Positions 21,528-29,989 of a DNA stretch of 64,000 bases are shown piece after piece. Origin of the DNA: Catenulispora sp. MAP5-51. GTDB lineage: Bacteria; Actinomycetota; Actinomycetes; Streptomycetales; Catenulisporaceae. The stretch spans positions 1 to 64,000 of the forward strand of contig NZ_JBGCCH010000002.1 in assembly GCF_041261205.1 (NCBI RefSeq), in the 5' to 3' direction. Position numbers and translations under genes: made by a program. Below the pieces are notes generated by a model, which saw only the letters and a program-made list of their open reading frames with translations, was not told the DNA's origin and did no database searches. Within the stretch, counting starts at the first letter, position 1, and each line of letters opens with the position of its first letter.

Positions 21528-22847
21528 TCAGGACTTCTCGGCCGCCGCGGCGGCCCGGGCGGCGTGCGGCAGCGCCTCGGCGACGGCCTCGACGGCCGCC
21601 TCGTCGTGCGCCGCGGAGACGAACCAGGCCTCGAAGGAGCTCGGCGGCAGGTAGACGCCGCGGTTCAGCATCGCGTGGAAGAACTCCGCGTAGGCCTTCG
21701 TGTCCTGCTTCTTGGCGTCCTCGTAGTTCTTCACCGGCTCGCCGGTGAAGAAGACGGAGAACATGGTGCCGGCGAACTGGACGGTGTGCGGGACGCCCTC
21801 CTTGGCCAGCGCCTCGGAGGCCAGGTCGGCGATGCGGTGCGCGGTGGCGTCCAGGTGGCTGTAGACCTCGGGGGTGCAGTGGCGCAGCGTGGCCAGGCCC
21901 GCGGCGGTGGCGACCGGGTTCCCGGACAGCGTGCCGGCCTGGTAGACCGGGCCGACCGGGGCCAGGTGGCCCATGACGTCCGCGCGCCCCCCGAAGGCCG
22001 CCGCCGGGAAGCCGCCGCCCATGACCTTGCCGAAGGTCATCAGGTCCGGCACCACGCCGTCGATGCCGTACACGCCCTCGCGCGAGGCCCGGAAGCCCGT
22101 CATCACCTCGTCGGAGATGAACAGCGCGCCGTGCTCGCGGCAGATGTCGGCCAGGAACTGGTTGAAGCCCGGCTGCGGCGGGACGATGCCCATGTTGCCG
22201 GGCGCGGCCTCGGTGATCAGGCAGGCGATCTCGGCGCCGTGCGCCTGGAACGCGGCCCGGACCGCCTCGACGTCGTTGTAGGGCAGCACGAGCGTGTCGC
22301 CGGCCTGCGCCCCGGTGACCCCGGGGGTGTCCGGCAGCGCGAAGGTGGCGACCCCGGAGCCGGCCGCGGCCAGCAGCGAGTCGACATGGCCGTGGTAGCA
22401 GCCGGCGAACTTCACAATCTTGGTCCGGCCGGTGAACCCGCGGGCCAGCCGGATCGCGCTCATCGTCGCCTCGGTCCCGGAGGAGACCAGCCGCACCTGC
22501 TGGAGCGGGGCGATCCGGGCCACCATCTCCTCGGCGAGCTCGACCTCCCCGGTCGAAGGCGCACCGTAGCTGGCCCCGCTCTGCAGCGCCTTGACCGCCG
22601 CCTCCGTCACCGCGGGGTGGTTGTGGCCCAGGATCAGCGGGCCCCAGGAGCAGACCATGTCGACGTAGCGGTTGCCGTCGACGTCGGTCAGGTACGCGCC
22701 GTCGCCGGAGGCCATGAACCGCGGCGTGCCCCCGACCGCGCCGAACGCCCGCACCGGAGAGTTCACACCACCCGGCGTCACGGCCCGGGCCCGGTCGAAC
22801 AGGTGCTGGGACTGGGTCTCGGGCGGCTCGTACGGATGCGCGTTCAT
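21528..22847 (-). CDS. hemL: Glutamate-1-semialdehyde 2,1-aminomutase HemL
   Basis: PLP enzyme making 5-aminolevulinate, the tetrapyrrole precursor, by the C5 route. A 439-residue class III aminotransferase fold is seen. Signatures are [13 protein letters not shown] at the N-terminus, [15 protein letters not shown], and the PLP-binding Lys274 in [11 protein letters not shown]. Alternative functions in the aminotransferase class are excluded by the [11 protein letters not shown] start. Its position next to the cytochrome c maturation operon is consistent with haem supply. Confidence 0.96.
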
Positions 22848-22899: not shown

Positions 22900-23331
22900 T
22901 CACTCGGGGGCGGGACAGGGCGCGACACGCATCGCGGCCACGGCCTCGACGAACTCCGCCGGCGGCTGGTAGCCGTGGTCGCGAACGTAGTGGACGACCA
23001 GCGTCGGCGCGGTCAGCTGCCGGCCGTCGGCGGCGACCACGCGGATCTCGGCGCTGCCGAGGTACAGGACGCGGGTGCCGTAGACGGCGCGGTACTGGTA
23101 GTCGGCCTCGAAGAGGTGGCGGAAGCGGCAGGCGTGCACGCTGCGGGTGACGGCGACGGTGTGGTCGGCGGCGAGGGCGACGAGGTTGTCCCAGAACAGC
23201 GGGTCGGGATCCCCCTCCGAAACGGCGAACTCCCGACCGGGCTCGAGCCAGCCGACCGTGAGGAGTTCCACGCCTTCCGGCACGGTGTCCGGGAGGTAGT
23301 CGTAGGGAGCCAGGTCCGGGAAGTAGGTCAT
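22900..23331 (-). CDS. DUF7919-like protein, paralogue A
   Basis: A 143-residue soluble protein starting MTYFPDLAPYDYLPD. Its C-terminal block is PTLVVHYVRDHGYQPPAEFVEAV. The same framework appears in the adjacent gene at 23350, with matches at both ends and a divergent middle, so the pair arose by tandem duplication. The pattern fits the DUF7919 family as I recall it. It lies 18 nt after its paralogue and in the same orientation as the RHS gene upstream, a position typical of immunity proteins. That role is inferred. Confidence 0.65.
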   Translation of the reverse strand: MTYFPDLAPYDYLPDTVPEGVELLTVGWLEPGREFAVSEGDPDPLFWDNLVALAADHTVAVTRSVHACRFRHLFEADYQYRAVYGTRVLYLGSAEIRVVAADGRQLTAPTLVVHYVRDHGYQPPAEFVEAVAAMRVAPCPAPE

Positions 23332-23349: not shown

Positions 23350-23820
23350 TCAGCGGCCGCTCGGCGCGATCCGCATCGCCTTCACCGCGTCGACGAATTC
23401 CTCCGGCGGCTGATAGCCGTGGTCGCGGACGTAGTGGACGACCAGAGTCGGGGCGACGAGCCAGCGGCCGTCCGGCGTGACGACACGGATCTCGGCGTGT
23501 CCGAGGAAGAGTTCACGGTCGCCGTAGACGGCGTCGACCTGGAAATCCTCGTCCTTGTCCTCGTCCTTGTCCTCGTCCCTGTCCGCGTGCGGCAGGTCGC
23601 ACGCATGCATGCCGCGCGTGGCCTGCGAGAAGTGATCGGCGGCCAGAGTGATCAGGTTCCTCAGGAACTCCGGATCCGGCTCACCCTCGCGCGTCGGGAA
23701 GTCGTGGCCCGCTTCGAGCCAGCCGACGTTGAGCACCTCGACGCCGTCGGGGTGGGGCTGCGGACCGGTCACGTGCTGGGGCCAGTACACGTAGGGGGTC
23801 AGGTCGGGGAAATAAGTCAT
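23350..23820 (-). CDS. DUF7919-like protein, paralogue B
   Basis: A 156-residue paralogue of the next gene. It begins MTYFPDLTPYVYWPQ and shares the LNVGWLEAGHDFPT block and the HYVRDHGYQPPEEFVDAV ending. It differs by an inserted acidic run DEDKDEDKDED (about residues 90-104), encoded by an imperfect 12-nt repeat of GTCCTCGTCCTT type. It starts 15 nt from the RHS stop and is probably translated from the same mRNA. It is a candidate immunity or accessory protein for the RHS C-terminal domain, not demonstrated. Confidence 0.65.
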   Translation of the reverse strand: MTYFPDLTPYVYWPQHVTGPQPHPDGVEVLNVGWLEAGHDFPTREGEPDPEFLRNLITLAADHFSQATRGMHACDLPHADRDEDKDEDKDEDFQVDAVYGDRELFLGHAEIRVVTPDGRWLVAPTLVVHYVRDHGYQPPEEFVDAVKAMRIAPSGR

Positions 23821-23835: not shown

Positions 23836-26800
23836 TCAGTAATTCGACATCCGCTGATAGCCCGCCGCGCTCACGACTTCGCGGCAGGCGGCCCAGTGCA
23901 CCGTACCCTGGTTCGGCTGCAGCAGTTCCGACAATCGGGTGGGACCGGTGACGGTGACGTTGCGCGGCGTGCCCATGATCGTGAGCCCCTTGGGCCGGAA
24001 CAGCGTGTAGTCCGGCAGTTTCTCCCCGGGGCCGTACACCTCCAACGGCGTCGGGTTCCCGGTCTCGATCGCGTGGCCCTCCGAGTCGTAGATGCTCGTG
24101 CCGTGCTCGCTGTACATCGCTATGGAGGTGCCCTCGGGCACCACGACGTAGGACCCGTCGCCGGCCTCGATGCCGCCGTGGCCGCTGAGGACCAGATCGC
24201 CGTCGGGCCGGCCGATGTTCCGCACGTCCTGGGCCCCGCTGGAGCCGACCACGAAGTCGGGGGCGCCGCGCTCCGCCCCGCCCGAGACCGGAGCCAGGCC
24301 CAGGGGGTCGGACCAGGCCAGCGGATTGAGCACGTATCCGCGGTCGTTCGGCGACGGCGCGAGGCCCAGCGGGTCCGGAGTCAGGTAGGACCCGGAACCC
24401 GGGTCGTAGTAGCGGTTCAGGTTGTACGACAGGCCGGTCTCCGCGTCGCGGTACTGGCCCGGGAAGCGCAGCGGGCAGTCGGCGCCGCCCCGGGTGGCGA
24501 CCGCGACCGCCTCGCCGAAGACCGTGGTGGCCAGGGACCATTCGACGGTGCCGTCCGGCGCGACGAGTTCGGTCGGGGTGCCGACCAGGTCGGTGACGAT
24601 GGCGTGGAAGGCCTCGTCGATCTGTGACCCGCTCTGGTCGGCCCGGCCGCCGGCGACCCGTCTGCGCTGCGCCGCCGGCCGCATGCTGTCCGGCCGGTAG
24701 TCCCAGGTGAGGACGGCGACCGTCCCGTCGGCACCGGTGCTCTCCTGCTCGATCAGGCGCGCGCCGTCCCAGCTGAAGCTCACCCGCTCGGCGACGGCAC
24801 CGCCGGCGTCCAGCCGGGACTTGCCGGTCCGGCGGCCGATGGGGTCGTAGTGATAGCGCCACCGGGTCGCGTCCGGCAGCGTGGCCTCGACGAGCCGGTC
24901 CTCGCCGTCCCAGGCGTAGCGCCACTCCCGCTGCCTGCCGTCGAGCGTGCGGCGGACGACACGGACCATGCGGCCCTGCTCGTCCTGCTCGTAGTGCGTG
25001 CGGCCGGCCCGCCGGATCGCGGTGCCGGCGAACTCGCGGTCTCCGCTGTCGTCCGGGGTGTTCGGGGTGACGGCGCGCTGGAGGTTCCCGAGCGCGTCGT
25101 AGGCGTAGGACTCGTTCCAGGCGTCACCGGTCACTGCCCTGACCCGGCCGAGGACGTCGAGCAGGTAGCGGCGGATGCCGTGCACCGAGTCGTCGATGCC
25201 GTCCGGCATCCCGTCTTCGCGGTAGGAGTAGCGGCGCCACCGGCTCGGCGCGGCCGCCGCTTCGGCCGGATCGGCTGCTTGGCCGCTCGCGGCATCGCCG
25301 GTCCACAGGTTCTGCGCGACCAGCCGTCCGGCCGTGTCGTACTCCTGCGCCAGCAACGCCCCGGGGCCCAGCACCCGCGCGACCTCGCGGCCGGCCGCGT
25401 CGTGCCGGAACACGATGTCCCCGATGCCCGTGCTCAGCGCCGCGGGCCGGCCGGCGGCATCGAACTCCCAGTCCGACCGTGCTCCGCCCGGCGTGACCCG
25501 GCTGACGGCGCGGCCCAGCACGTCGTAGCCGTGGGCCACGGTCCGGCCGTCGACCGTCTCGGCGACGATCCGGCCCAGGGGGTCGCGTTCGTAGGCCACG
25601 GTGCTGACCGCGCCGCGCGCCGCGGTCATGCGGCCCATCGCGTCGTATTCGAAGCCGAGGACACCGTCGGCGGTGTGCCGCTCGACCACCCGGCCCATCG
25701 CGTCGCGGACCAGGTCCGAGGCCTGGCCGGCGCCGTTGGTCCGGCGGGTCAGACGGCCGGCGGCGTCGTGCGCGTACGTCACGGTGCGACTGCCGAAGTC
25801 CGTCTCGGAGACGAGCCGGCCGGCGGCGTCGTGCGCGTAGCGCCACTGCGCGCCGGTGGGCGCGGTCACCGAGGTGAGCCGCAGTTCGGCGTCGTAGCCG
25901 AAGTCGTAGCGGGCACCGCCCGGCTCGGTGCGGGACGTGACACGGCCGAAGGGCCCGTACTCGAAGCCGGTGGTCCCGACCGGCCCGACGTGCTGGACCA
26001 CCTGGCCGTTGGCGTTGTAGACGTTCTTCTCGACGCTCCCGTCCGGTCCCGTCCGGGACAGCGGCCGCCCCTCGAGGGTCCAGGCCGTCGCGGTGGTCGC
26101 GCCGGAGGGGTGGAGCGTGGCGGTGATCCGGCCGAACCGGTCCCGGCGGGACCGGGTCACCGCGCCGTCCGCCGAGGTCACCGCGACCAGCAGCCCGGCG
26201 GCGTCGGCCTCGAGCCGGGTGATGTGGCCCAGGGCGTCGGTGACCGCGACGACGGCCCCGCGCCCGTCCCGGGCCAGGCGGGTCTCGGCCCCGGCGGGAT
26301 CGGTGCTGCGCACCAGGTTCCCGCGCGTGTCGTAGCCGTGTCTCCAGGTCGCGCCGTCGCGGTTGACCAGACGCGTGGTGTTGTGAAGGCCGTCGTACTC
26401 GGCGACGCTGCGCGTGCCGTCGGGGTGGTCGACGGCGACCACGTCGCCGCGCTCGTCGTAGGTGAGGAGGGTCCGATGGCCGAGGGCGTCGGTCCTGGAC
26501 AGGAGGCGGCCGTACCGATCGTGCTCGAAACGCGTCTCGGCGCCGAGTCGGTCGGTGACGCGGTCGATGTGGCCCACGGCGTCGTAGTGGTAGCCGGTGG
26601 TGTGGCCGAGGGCGTCGGTGACAGCGGTGAGACCGGCCTCCGGGTCGTAGACGAAGGTCGCCGCCAGGAACCCGCCGTTCCCGGTGGACGAAGCGACGCG
26701 TCCCGCCTCGTCGTAGGCGTACGAGTACCGGAATGCGGAGCGGTCTGTCCAAGCGGTGATCCGGTCGGCGTCGTCATAGGCGTACTCGAAGGCGCGGCCG

Positions 26801-28416
26801 GTGGAGTTGACGATGCCGGCCAAGCGGCCGCGGTCGTCGTAGCGATACTCGACCAGGGTGGTGGCGGCGCCGTCGTCGCCGGGCATCCGCAGGGCCGAGA
26901 TCCGCGGGCCCGCCGGGGTCGGCGCGATGTCGACCACGAGCCGGTATCCGCCGCTGTGCTCGACCTCGACCGGCGTTCCGTCGGCTGTGCGCCGGATGTC
27001 GATCCGGTTGTCGTTGCGGTCGTGCAGCACCGTCAGGTCGCGGATCTGGCCCGCCCCGGCGGCGAAGTGGACGGCCGGGAAGCGCCGCGTCAGACCGCTC
27101 CACGGGTCGGTGACCCGGATCTCGTCGGCGGCTCGGTCCCACACCAGCGGCCAGCGGGGACCCCGCTCCGGAAGCACTTCCTCGCCGCCGGCAGGCAGCG
27201 GGTAGTGGAGCGTCTGGGCGTCGTCGCCGGCGAAGTGGATCCCCGCGGCGTTGACGGATATCCGCTGGTCGAGTGTCGAGGACCAGCCGGGCCCGAAGCG
27301 CAGGCCGTTCGGATTTCCCGAGGCGTAGGCGCGGCGCAGGACGAGCGGGAGGATGCCCGGCAGCACGACGTCGGTGTCGGTGGCGAGCATCTGGCCCGTG
27401 ATCACGTCCACGGGGTCCGCGGCGGTGACAGCGCCCTCGTTTCCCTCCGCGCCGCGGGTCACCGAACGTTCCTCCGAGGACAGGGCCCCGGCTTCGCCCT
27501 CGGCTTCCTTTCCGAGCTTGCCGAGCAGGCGTCCGCCGGCGAACTGGAGGCCGAGCATGCCCGCGCCGATCAGGGCGTCCTTGAAGTGGCCCTGCATCGC
27601 GTCGCCGGCTGTCTCCAGGCCGGTGCCGGCGATGGCGACGATGTTGTCGGCCTCGGCCAGGGCGGCGGTGACGACGTCGACGCCGGGGATCCAGGAGGTC
27701 GCCAGGGCCAGGACGTCCAGGAACGGAGCGAGGTCGTTGGCGATCTCGGCGATCTTCCCGCCCCACTCGGACAGGGCCTCGCCGACGTGCTCCCACCAGT
27801 GCTTGTTGTGGATGCCGTCGGACTGGGCATGTCCGAGGGCTTTCGCGCAATCCTGCGCGGCGCTGATGCGGTCGTTGTAGGCGTCGTTGGCCTGCTTGGT
27901 CAACGCCGTCATCTTGGCTTTGGCGTTGTTCAGGTTGGTCTGCGCGCTGTCGTGGGCGGTCTGCGCGTCGGTGACTGCCTGCTGATCGGGGTTCGCGGCC
28001 TGGTTCTGCTGCGCCGTCTTCAGCTCCGTGGCCGCACTGGTGGCGGTGGTGGTGGCGCGTTGCAGCTCGGCGTGCGCATCCTGGGCCTGGCGCAGTGCCG
28101 TGTCGGCTTTGGTCTGCGCGGCCTGCAATCTCGGCGCGTAAGCCGACAGCGCGTCGGAGGCCTCGCTGTAGGACGTGTACAGCTTCTGCAGGCGCCCAGG
28201 AAGCGGACCGTACTGGGCCTTGAACGAGTCGGCGGTCTGGCCTGTCCACTGGATCGCTGCGGAATCGGATCCGAAGCTGTTCAGGCTCCGGTACGCCGCC
28301 TCCACGTCGTGGGCGAAATCCCCGAACTCCTTGGCCAGGGCCTGAACCGACTCCACCACGCCGGGAGTCGGATCGCCATCCAGTCCCAGGACATCCCACC
28401 CCGTCGGACGTGCCAT
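23836..28416 (-). CDS. RHS-repeat protein with Stv-like C-terminal domain
   Basis: A 1526-residue polymorphic-toxin-like protein. Residues 1-200 are helical with a central W-T-G-Q (about 57-60), resembling WXG100/T7SS-type substrates, followed by a coiled coil. Residues 225-300 are hydrophobic. From about residue 334 a DUF6531 segment (DPVDVITGQML) leads into about 1000 residues of YD/RHS repeats (YDxxGRL-type), and the shell closes with YVLNPLAWSDPLGL. The last 152 residues are a distinct domain. It contains SGHGG (1411-1415), VVVPEGT, EVYGPGEKLPDYTL, TRLSELLQP and HWAAC (1507-1511), resembling the Stv putative adhesin domain. No signal peptide is seen. Two paralogous small genes follow. Confidence 0.85.
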   Translation of the reverse strand: MARPTGWDVLGLDGDPTPGVVESVQALAKEFGDFAHDVEAAYRSLNSFGSDSAAIQWTGQTADSFKAQYGPLPGRLQKLYTSYSEASDALSAYAPRLQAAQTKADTALRQAQDAHAELQRATTTATSAATELKTAQQNQAANPDQQAVTDAQTAHDSAQTNLNNAKAKMTALTKQANDAYNDRISAAQDCAKALGHAQSDGIHNKHWWEHVGEALSEWGGKIAEIANDLAPFLDVLALATSWIPGVDVVTAALAEADNIVAIAGTGLETAGDAMQGHFKDALIGAGMLGLQFAGGRLLGKLGKEAEGEAGALSSEERSVTRGAEGNEGAVTAADPVDVITGQMLATDTDVVLPGILPLVLRRAYASGNPNGLRFGPGWSSTLDQRISVNAAGIHFAGDDAQTLHYPLPAGGEEVLPERGPRWPLVWDRAADEIRVTDPWSGLTRRFPAVHFAAGAGQIRDLTVLHDRNDNRIDIRRTADGTPVEVEHSGGYRLVVDIAPTPAGPRISALRMPGDDGAATTLVEYRYDDRGRLAGIVNSTGRAFEYAYDDADRITAWTDRSAFRYSYAYDEAGRVASSTGNGGFLAATFVYDPEAGLTAVTDALGHTTGYHYDAVGHIDRVTDRLGAETRFEHDRYGRLLSRTDALGHRTLLTYDERGDVVAVDHPDGTRSVAEYDGLHNTTRLVNRDGATWRHGYDTRGNLVRSTDPAGAETRLARDGRGAVVAVTDALGHITRLEADAAGLLVAVTSADGAVTRSRRDRFGRITATLHPSGATTATAWTLEGRPLSRTGPDGSVEKNVYNANGQVVQHVGPVGTTGFEYGPFGRVTSRTEPGGARYDFGYDAELRLTSVTAPTGAQWRYAHDAAGRLVSETDFGSRTVTYAHDAAGRLTRRTNGAGQASDLVRDAMGRVVERHTADGVLGFEYDAMGRMTAARGAVSTVAYERDPLGRIVAETVDGRTVAHGYDVLGRAVSRVTPGGARSDWEFDAAGRPAALSTGIGDIVFRHDAAGREVARVLGPGALLAQEYDTAGRLVAQNLWTGDAASGQAADPAEAAAAPSRWRRYSYREDGMPDGIDDSVHGIRRYLLDVLGRVRAVTGDAWNESYAYDALGNLQRAVTPNTPDDSGDREFAGTAIRRAGRTHYEQDEQGRMVRVVRRTLDGRQREWRYAWDGEDRLVEATLPDATRWRYHYDPIGRRTGKSRLDAGGAVAERVSFSWDGARLIEQESTGADGTVAVLTWDYRPDSMRPAAQRRRVAGGRADQSGSQIDEAFHAIVTDLVGTPTELVAPDGTVEWSLATTVFGEAVAVATRGGADCPLRFPGQYRDAETGLSYNLNRYYDPGSGSYLTPDPLGLAPSPNDRGYVLNPLAWSDPLGLAPVSGGAERGAPDFVVGSSGAQDVRNIGRPDGDLVLSGHGGIEAGDGSYVVVPEGTSIAMYSEHGTSIYDSEGHAIETGNPTPLEVYGPGEKLPDYTLFRPKGLTIMGTPRNVTVTGPTRLSELLQPNQGTVHWAACREVVSAAGYQRMSNY

Positions 28417-28468
28417 GCGCCACCCTCCCCGCGTGTGCGGCCACCGCCGGGGACGAGCGTACCGAACA

Positions 28469-29989
28469 TCAGTATTCTGCCGTAGCCCTCTGTGCCGATG
28501 CCGCCACCGCCAGCACCGCTGCCACGATGAACGCCGGCAGCAGCAGGTAGGCGGTGTGGATGCCGACGCGGTCGGACAGGAACCCGAGCGCGAACGGCGC
28601 CGTTCCCACCGCGATTCCGCTCCCGAACATGTTCACCGAGCCGGCCAGTTCCGCCTCGCCGCCGGACATCTCGATGCCGCGCGCCGACAGCAGCGGGAAC
28701 TGGAGGGACACGCCGAGGCCGGCGACGGCCAGACCCGCGAACATGAGCACCGGGTTCGCGGTCGCCCAGAAGAGGGCGAAGCCGACGAGGTTGGTGGCGA
28801 AGGAGGTGTAGATCAGGCGGTCGATCGGCACCCGCAGTGCCAGCCGGCCGCCGACCGCGCGGCCCAGGGCCATGCCCGCGACGACGGCCGTGACCCCGGT
28901 CGCCGCGACGCCGGCGGACAGGTGCGCGCGGTCGCGCAGGAGGGTCGCGCACCAGAGGGTGAGGCAGAACTCGATGGCGCCCGCACAGACGCCCGCCACC
29001 TGGTTGAGCCAGAAGCGGCGTGGGAGGTCACGGAAGGTCGCGGTCGTGGCGGCGGGAGGGTCGCCGGCGGTGCGGGGCGCGGGCACGGTCGCTTGAGTGC
29101 GCTGGCGGGAATCGGCGGCCGGCGTACTCGTTTCGACGACGAGGCCGCGCCGGCCGCGGGACTCGGCAGCGGCGGCAGCGGTAGCGGCCGTCACGGCGAC
29201 GTTTTCGGCACGACCCCGGTCGGCGAAGTCCCAGTCCGCGGAGCCTTGCCCGGCGAGGCCGTCAGCCACGCCATCGCTCTCGGTCTCGCGCTCCCCCTCA
29301 GCGCCAAGGCCTTCGCCCGAACCGGCCGTGTCCACCATCCCGAGCCCGTAAGCCTCGACGGCCTCGCCGACCGCCACCGCCTCGACCTGCGCCGCGCACC
29401 ACGCCGGCTCGCGCACGCGCCCGAGCACCACGTACAGCAGCGCGCTCAGCGGTGCCACCGACAGCAGCGCCGTGCGCCACCCGAGCCCGGCCGCGTCCGC
29501 GCCGCCGACCGCCAGCGGCGCCGCGATGCCCACGAACGCCGCGACCGCGTTGGCCTCCGTGATGGCCGCCGGGCCGGTCTCGGCGCCGTGTGCGCGGGAC
29601 AGGGCCGCGGGCACGGCTATGCACAGCAGCGAGCCGAAGATTCCGCAGATGACAGCCGCCGGAAGCGTTACCGCCAGAGACGGGACCGAGCAGAACAGGC
29701 CCACCGACAGCGCCAGGCCGACCAGGCCCCACCACAGTGCGGGGCGGAAGCCGCCGGCCTTGCGGATGTACCGGGGCGCGCTGAGGCTGCCGGCGGTGAC
29801 GCCGACGGCGTAGCAGGTGCTGTGCAGCCCGGCCACCCCGGCGGAGAGGTGGAGGTCGTCCTTGAGCAGGGCGATCGAGGGACTGAATGCGTAGAGGAAG
29901 AAGGCGAAGGCGCCGAGTTGGAGGTAGAGCAAGCGGGTCCAGCTGTCGTGCCGGACCCGCAGGACGGGCTCAGAAGGGGTGGCGCTCAC
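28469..29989 (-). CDS. MFS transporter with a long central loop
   Basis: A 506-residue major facilitator protein with about 12 helices and GMALGRAVGGRLALR-type loop motifs. Between helices 6 and 7 (about residues 195-320) lies an unusually long, Ala/Glu/Thr-rich, probably disordered cytoplasmic insert. The substrate cannot be assigned. It follows the DUF3027 gene by 17 nt and precedes the RHS gene by 52 nt on the same strand. Confidence 0.85.
   Translation of the reverse strand: MSATPSEPVLRVRHDSWTRLLYLQLGAFAFFLYAFSPSIALLKDDLHLSAGVAGLHSTCYAVGVTAGSLSAPRYIRKAGGFRPALWWGLVGLALSVGLFCSVPSLAVTLPAAVICGIFGSLLCIAVPAALSRAHGAETGPAAITEANAVAAFVGIAAPLAVGGADAAGLGWRTALLSVAPLSALLYVVLGRVREPAWCAAQVEAVAVGEAVEAYGLGMVDTAGSGEGLGAEGERETESDGVADGLAGQGSADWDFADRGRAENVAVTAATAAAAAESRGRRGLVVETSTPAADSRQRTQATVPAPRTAGDPPAATTATFRDLPRRFWLNQVAGVCAGAIEFCLTLWCATLLRDRAHLSAGVAATGVTAVVAGMALGRAVGGRLALRVPIDRLIYTSFATNLVGFALFWATANPVLMFAGLAVAGLGVSLQFPLLSARGIEMSGGEAELAGSVNMFGSGIAVGTAPFALGFLSDRVGIHTAYLLLPAFIVAAVLAVAASAQRATAEY

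Follow-up and report, generated by a model that had tools for sequence, protein, structure and literature searches.

Within the window, a 64,000-nucleotide stretch of DNA from Catenulispora sp. MAP5-51, the minus strand carries a single open reading frame at 28416..23836, running from ATG to TGA and translated to 1526 aa. A first-pass annotation, made from the letters alone, had correctly given this interval to an RHS polymorphic protein; it did not state the strand. An MFS transporter gene lies upstream, and two small genes of the DUF7919 family (hereafter, imm1 and imm2) and a hemL-like gene follow downstream. The features of the locus are listed here in the order of transcription.

28469..29989, minus strand: gene for an MFS transporter, bordering the probable insertion upstream (Pfam scan; synteny).
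23836..28416, minus strand: predicted RHS polymorphic toxin gene, 1526 aa (open reading frame and translation; Pfam/NCBIfam architecture).
27868..28362, minus strand: candidate export domain at the helical N-terminus, residues 19-183, matched by T7SS_signal (PF21725) at 37.9 bits (cut-off 27).
27202..27417, minus strand: DUF6531 (PF20148), residues 334-405, 67.7 bits.
24295..26874, minus strand: RHS shell (Pfam/NCBIfam), with TIGR03696 as its closing part at residues 1298-1374.
24361..24375, minus strand: first DPLGL, with the putative autoprotease aspartate D1348, 22 residues N-terminal of D1370.
24295..24309, minus strand: second DPLGL, with D1370, within PxxxxDPxGL (motif as in PMC8765631); putative cleavage site before the tip.
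23839..24294, minus strand: putative toxin tip, residues 1375-1526, 152 aa, PF21527 Stv (E 1.7e-27; model pLDDT 80.8).
24178..24180, minus strand: codon of H1413, the invariant histidine of SGHGG (27/27 sequences).
23884..23886, minus strand: codon of C1511, the invariant cysteine of HWAAC (27/27 sequences).
23350..23820, minus strand: imm1, DUF7919 (PF25535), 156 aa, 135 bits; no counterpart in the sister loci L112-L116.
22900..23331, minus strand: imm2, DUF7919 (PF25535), 143 aa, 126 bits; its orthologue is resident at this site in the sisters.
21528..22847, minus strand: hemL-like gene, downstream border (synteny; all nine genus mates have it at 88-98% identity).

A 1211-aa open reading frame on the plus strand (24850-28485) runs antisense to the RHS gene; we rejected it as a real gene and read it as most likely a GC-rich coding-strand artefact.

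The domain architecture described in the first-pass annotation was recovered by profile searches. The helical, WXG-like head corresponds to the PF21725 match, and the WXG100 profile scored under its cut-off in this part of the protein (Pfam scan). DUF6531 is followed by a long RHS shell with 18 repeats (Pfam scan), and the TIGR03696 match stops at residue 1374, exactly at NPLAWSDPLGL, where the shell had been said to close. In RhsA the catalytic aspartates D1324/D1346 free the toxin tip, and the site has the PxxxxDPxGL motif (PMC8765631). The pair D1348 and D1370 has the same spacing of 22 residues, and release of residues 1375-1526 is thus expected by analogy.

The genome encodes ESX machinery, with four EccB genes over cut-off. 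None of these lies beside the RHS gene, the nearest being about 460 kb off on the same contig, and a type VII linkage through gene neighbourhood was ruled out on this distance. In Listeria, a DUF6531-RHS toxin has been tied to type VII secretion (PMC10327511), and export of the RHS-Stv protein by an ESX/type VII system is plausible.

The tip had been called Stv-like, and a profile search of residues 1375-1526 confirmed this with a match to PF21527 ('Putative adhesin Stv domain') of 92-97 bits (cut-off 24.2) over residues 1408-1513, nearly the whole model. At 97 bits (E 1.7e-27) this likeness is not chance. The motifs SGHGG, PEGT, EVYGPGEKLPDYTL and HWAAC were all present in the 152 residues, and H1413, H1507 and C1511 had been numbered correctly.

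Using the last 245 residues of the RHS shell as a query against 60 related genomes, we obtained matches in 51. Shell ends were translated at 41 loci of the own genome and its relatives (the window itself being one of them) and were 49-65% identical to the window shell. Against the window tip, which scores 805 with itself, the tips on these shells reached 22-39, with the sole exception of L073, the tip of which scored 245 and is another Stv. A scan of seven other tips detected a Pput2613 deaminase, Tox-HNH-EHHH and Endonuclea_NS_2 over cut-off and Tox-ART-HYD1 and Deam_C below cut-off; two of the seven had no family match. A constant shell bearing unrelated tips indicates that the tip is an exchangeable module outside the shell fold, which argues against the tip being part of that fold, a possibility the first-pass annotation had set against its toxin reading. 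These comparisons support the window tip as a putative polymorphic toxin domain, occupying a slot that elsewhere holds known toxin enzymes.

When 27 divergent Stv domains were aligned, H1413 and C1511 were the only invariant positions, while E1451, Y1435, P1427 and G1429 were frequent. The position of H1507 is occupied by H, Q or D, even among closer relatives. Of the Cys-His pattern earlier suggested to be catalytic, H1413 and C1511 therefore stand, and H1507 was ruled out as a third catalytic residue because Q or D replaces it in closer relatives. An AlphaFold2 model of the tip built from 18 sequences (mean pLDDT 80.8, core above 90) places H1413 inside strand 23-32 and C1511 immediately after strand 119-125. 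The model had no fold match in the PDB, and the earlier remark that the domain has no assigned activity holds within the profile libraries and literature searched.

The order of these residues is that of clan CD enzymes, an invariant His and then an invariant Cys, each in or after a strand (27/27), and SGHG falls on the catalytic GHG of caspase-type sequences from the own genome in the best local alignment to them, the profile match being non-significant. However, hhalign comparisons with CHAT and the C14/caspase families of the same genome gave probabilities of about 1% or less. Given this and the lack of a PDB fold match, the tip was not filed in clan CD, although its motif order fits.

Because H1413 and C1511 alone are invariant, a Cys-His dyad enzyme is the most likely activity of the tip, and we consider this putative assignment reasonably probable; that the enzyme is specifically a protease has somewhat less than even chances. 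Alternatively, the tip could be a toxin that is likewise neutralised by DUF7919 and in which the His and Cys serve structure or ligand binding, with some other activity, for example a nucleotide- or membrane-directed one. The absence of a match among known enzyme folds is in keeping with this, as is the conservation, almost as strong, of the glycines and the proline that flank the motifs. Yet the His and Cys are the only residues kept in 27/27 domains, despite the loss of the flanking glycine of GHG in L044 (GHS) and of the AAC alanines in L044 (WLGC) and L045 (LATC), and both are also retained in L073, outside the 27, where LIC replaces AAC. We regard this alternative as rather unlikely and favour the dyad enzyme.

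Structural neighbours of the tip in BFVD (model of 23839-24261) were giant-virus proteins only, the best being from Indivirus (A0A1V0SD77, E 1.6e-3, prob 1.00) and Klosneuvirus (A0A1V0SLK3, prob 0.96). Further neighbours came from Harvfovirus, Catovirus and others and are uncharacterised proteins. On these model comparisons, a giant-virus kinship of the tip is a lead, short of a demonstrated relationship.

The genes downstream of the RHS gene were identified here as immunity candidates, which, together with the orphan-immunity locus described below, goes beyond the first-pass annotation. Both imm1 and imm2 match PF25535 over the full model (cut-off 27). The own genome has one Stv and two DUF7919 genes, all at the window locus. 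Among 297 genomes of the same class, five have Stv and eight have DUF7919 over cut-off; DUF7919 occurs in 4/5 Stv genomes vs 4/292 Stv-free genomes (Fisher p 1.1e-6, an optimistic value as genomes are counted as independent). In the four class genomes holding both, Stv and DUF7919 are always adjacent.

Among all the loci examined, DUF7919 lies directly 3' of Stv at 18 (the window, L008-L012, L014, the first copy of L015, L016, L023, L024, L032, L033, L045 twice, L073, L140 and L146), behind RHS, PT-HINT and CdiA-like proteins; one additional pair, in L028, is decayed. The window has two DUF7919 copies after Stv, the gap is about 440 bases in L011, and the copy in L023 is divergent (1.6e-7). 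The paired loci come from Actinomycetota, Streptomyces and Frankia among them, and from metagenome-assembled genomes named Rhizobacter and Oceanospirillaceae. No DUF7919 was found beside Stv in the RHS/WXG-type loci L013, L017, L018 and L027 or beside the eCIS-type Stv proteins of L019, L021 and L022; L020 and the second Stv copy of L015 are close to contig ends. The recurrent adjacent immunity family, together with the exchange of tips on a constant shell, supports the toxin reading of the first-pass annotation. The gene order is plain from the sequences, the neutralisation of Stv by DUF7919 is putative, and we consider it very likely that the two are a toxin-immunity pair.

Some further features of these genes were observed. 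In the Rhizobacter genome the second Stv copy (L015:2479-3341) is followed by a different 132-aa gene without a Pfam match, possibly another immunity type. At L025:6460-9232, a YD-repeat toxin whose tip has IRLVMCHGG is followed by small genes that include an orphan DUF7919 and a weak relative. In the window, imm1 has an acidic DEDKDEDKDED insertion (23520-23570, minus strand) that is not in imm2 and apparently came from a small in-frame tandem repeat. A model of DUF7919 (pLDDT 87.5) had no match in the PDB.

The same genomic site was compared in sister species of the genus. In five of them (L112-L116, in genomes G888, G884, G886, G882 and G889) the order is MFS, one DUF7919 and hemL, without an RHS gene, and the DUF7919 there is closer to imm2 (69-85% identity) than to imm1 (57-65%). 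No DUF7919 was found beside hemL at L107 and L108. Between the MFS stop codon and the DUF7919 start, L112 has TCCGGGCATCATCCCGCC; between the imm1 stop codon and the imm2 start, the window has TCAGGGCACCATCCCGAC. The dN/dS was about 0.3-0.4 for imm2 and its sister orthologues and about 0.24-0.5 among DUF7919 copies. Judged from synteny and these ratios, the DUF7919 of the five sisters is a conserved, putative orphan immunity gene under purifying selection. Immunity genes that stand alone, their toxin missing, form a recognised pattern (PMC10327511).

Given the single toxin-free DUF7919 in five sisters, RHS-Stv and imm1 were probably inserted beside a resident orphan, and the simplest reading is that they landed exactly between MFS and that gene, with imm1 probably arriving together with the toxin gene. 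A loss of RHS-Stv in the five sisters is a possible alternative. In the portion of the RHS genes of the genus that was read, two genus mates also carry an RHS-Stv (L140 in G881 and L146 in G886), each at another place in the genome and paired with a DUF7919 that is different and more distant; G886 is also one of the five sisters with the orphan.

The orphan, kept without a toxin between MFS and hemL under purifying selection, might suggest that DUF7919 is a housekeeping or accessory protein that stands beside these toxins by chance. Against this, DUF7919 is rare (over cut-off in 8/297 class genomes), tracks Stv and follows it in unrelated carriers and phyla, and toxin-less immunity genes are themselves an established pattern (PMC10327511). 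We consider a housekeeping role very unlikely, and an immunity function remains our reading of DUF7919.

Stv is carried by a range of proteins, including RHS proteins with T7SS heads (L008, L013), a PT-HINT pretoxin (L012), an SpvB-type YD protein (L017), a protein with an eCIS core domain (L022:3684-5567, plus strand), a WXG-type protein of 1190 aa (L027) and CdiA-like proteins (L045, with PT-VENN matched weakly). In every carrier Stv is at or near the C-terminus with nothing toxin-like beyond it. The proteins at L019 (763-1554) and L021 (4242-5567) have a GNAAV-like head in common with L022; the eCIS domain was not detected in them, and we read them as putative eCIS cargo. The proteins of L019, L021 and L022 are from Streptomyces and Kitasatospora. 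Stand-alone homologues lacking an immunity neighbour had been named beforehand as evidence against a toxin; such cases were limited to four distant relatives (L031 and L042-L044), which are stand-alone or fused to DUF6863 and are without DUF7919. Close to the divergent stand-alone Stv genes at L031:5575-6297 (minus strand) and L044:4138-4905 (plus strand) is a gene whose product has AHG...YSCG or CHGHG...LMCG motifs and for which no Pfam family was matched.

Sequence searches of the PDB with the tip and its profile gave no match, nor did PADLOC and PHROGs; no relatives were found in phage records and viral contigs, and among plasmids one Streptomyces record matched. In the literature searched, no paper named PF21527, PF25535 or 'adhesin Stv' or described Stv and DUF7919 as a toxin-immunity pair, and the main texts of the eCIS papers checked do not mention Stv.

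The Pfam name of PF21527 would suggest an adhesin or binding domain without toxic action. We rejected this reading on context and hold it to be extremely improbable, as the slot on the same shell is otherwise filled by toxin enzymes, a small gene dedicated to Stv repeatedly lies next to it, Stv also follows a HINT domain in one carrier and an eCIS core domain in another, and two catalytic-type residues are invariant. A role for Stv as a protease that processes its own RHS protein, in place of a toxin role, is equally improbable. Caspase-like and papain-like domains do such processing in some polymorphic toxins (PMC3482391), but processing domains sit upstream of a toxin domain, while Stv is at or near the C-terminus with no toxin after it; the DPxGL autoprotease already serves release, and Stv has its own immunity gene.

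Taken together, the locus likely encodes an RHS polymorphic toxin directed at other bacteria, along with the immunity genes that belong to it. The toxin would be a large protein that this soil bacterium probably uses for delivering poison to rival bacteria. The WXG-like head would take the protein out of the cell, probably through an ESX/type VII system, with the tip enclosed by the RHS shell. The D1348/D1370 aspartyl autoprotease would cut the tip free after L1374, and the freed 152-aa Stv would act inside the target cell through the C1511-H1413 dyad, most likely as a cysteine protease or related thiol hydrolase, while in the producer the DUF7919 proteins would bind it and keep it inactive. 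The sequences themselves show the order of the domains, the exchange of tips, the repeated pairing of Stv with DUF7919, the invariance of two residues and the site without the toxin gene in the sisters, whereas export route, cleavage, toxicity, neutralisation and catalysis are inferred.

A broader and doubtful, if conceivable, reading is that the Stv domains form a novel family of small toxins that work as Cys-His enzymes and whose fold is missing from the PDB. The family, with possible relatives in giant viruses and among stand-alone bacterial proteins, would be moved among RHS, HINT, CdiA-like, ESX-type and eCIS carriers and would act on a target conserved from bacteria to eukaryotes. DUF7919 would then be a dedicated inhibitor, kept genus-wide as an orphan against the toxins of relatives. 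As Stv occurs on carriers with immunity (RHS, CdiA-like) and without (eCIS-type), toxins aimed at bacteria could be compared with those aimed at other targets. The sister species offer a natural experiment, with a toxin gene beside an immunity gene that was probably already present.

The predicted RHS polymorphic toxin in the window belongs to a known kind; its putative toxin domain and immunity family are undescribed in the literature searched. Its shell resembles that of RhsA of Pseudomonas protegens (PMC8765631) in the PxxxxDPxGL motif with the paired Asp 22 residues upstream, and that of LrhA of Listeria (PMC10327511) in DUF6531; LrhA, too, is tied to type VII secretion. A short variable tip and adjacent immunity are common to both, whereas the protein in the window has Stv as its tip and DUF7919 as its putative immunity, without secretion genes alongside. 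Tox-Caspase and other clan CD toxins (PMC3482391) likewise have His before Cys, with a strand then [SA]GHG and a strand then AC; Stv differs in a His-Cys gap of about 97 residues with a beta-rich insert and in having no profile or fold match. Cpe1, a papain-like protease toxin that cuts GyrB/ParE (PMC12136450), has a papain fold and a Cys-His-Asp triad, in contrast to the Cys-His pair of Stv, in which His precedes Cys and no fold was matched; a small thiol-protease tip, putative in Stv, and a neighbouring immunity protein are shared by the two. The Pfam name of PF21527 implies adhesion, while context and conservation here point to a Cys-His toxin, and PF25535, named as a family of unknown function, is proposed here to provide immunity to Stv. 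The two families thereby receive a testable function together, the 'adhesin' domain as a toxin and DUF7919 as its immunity protein.
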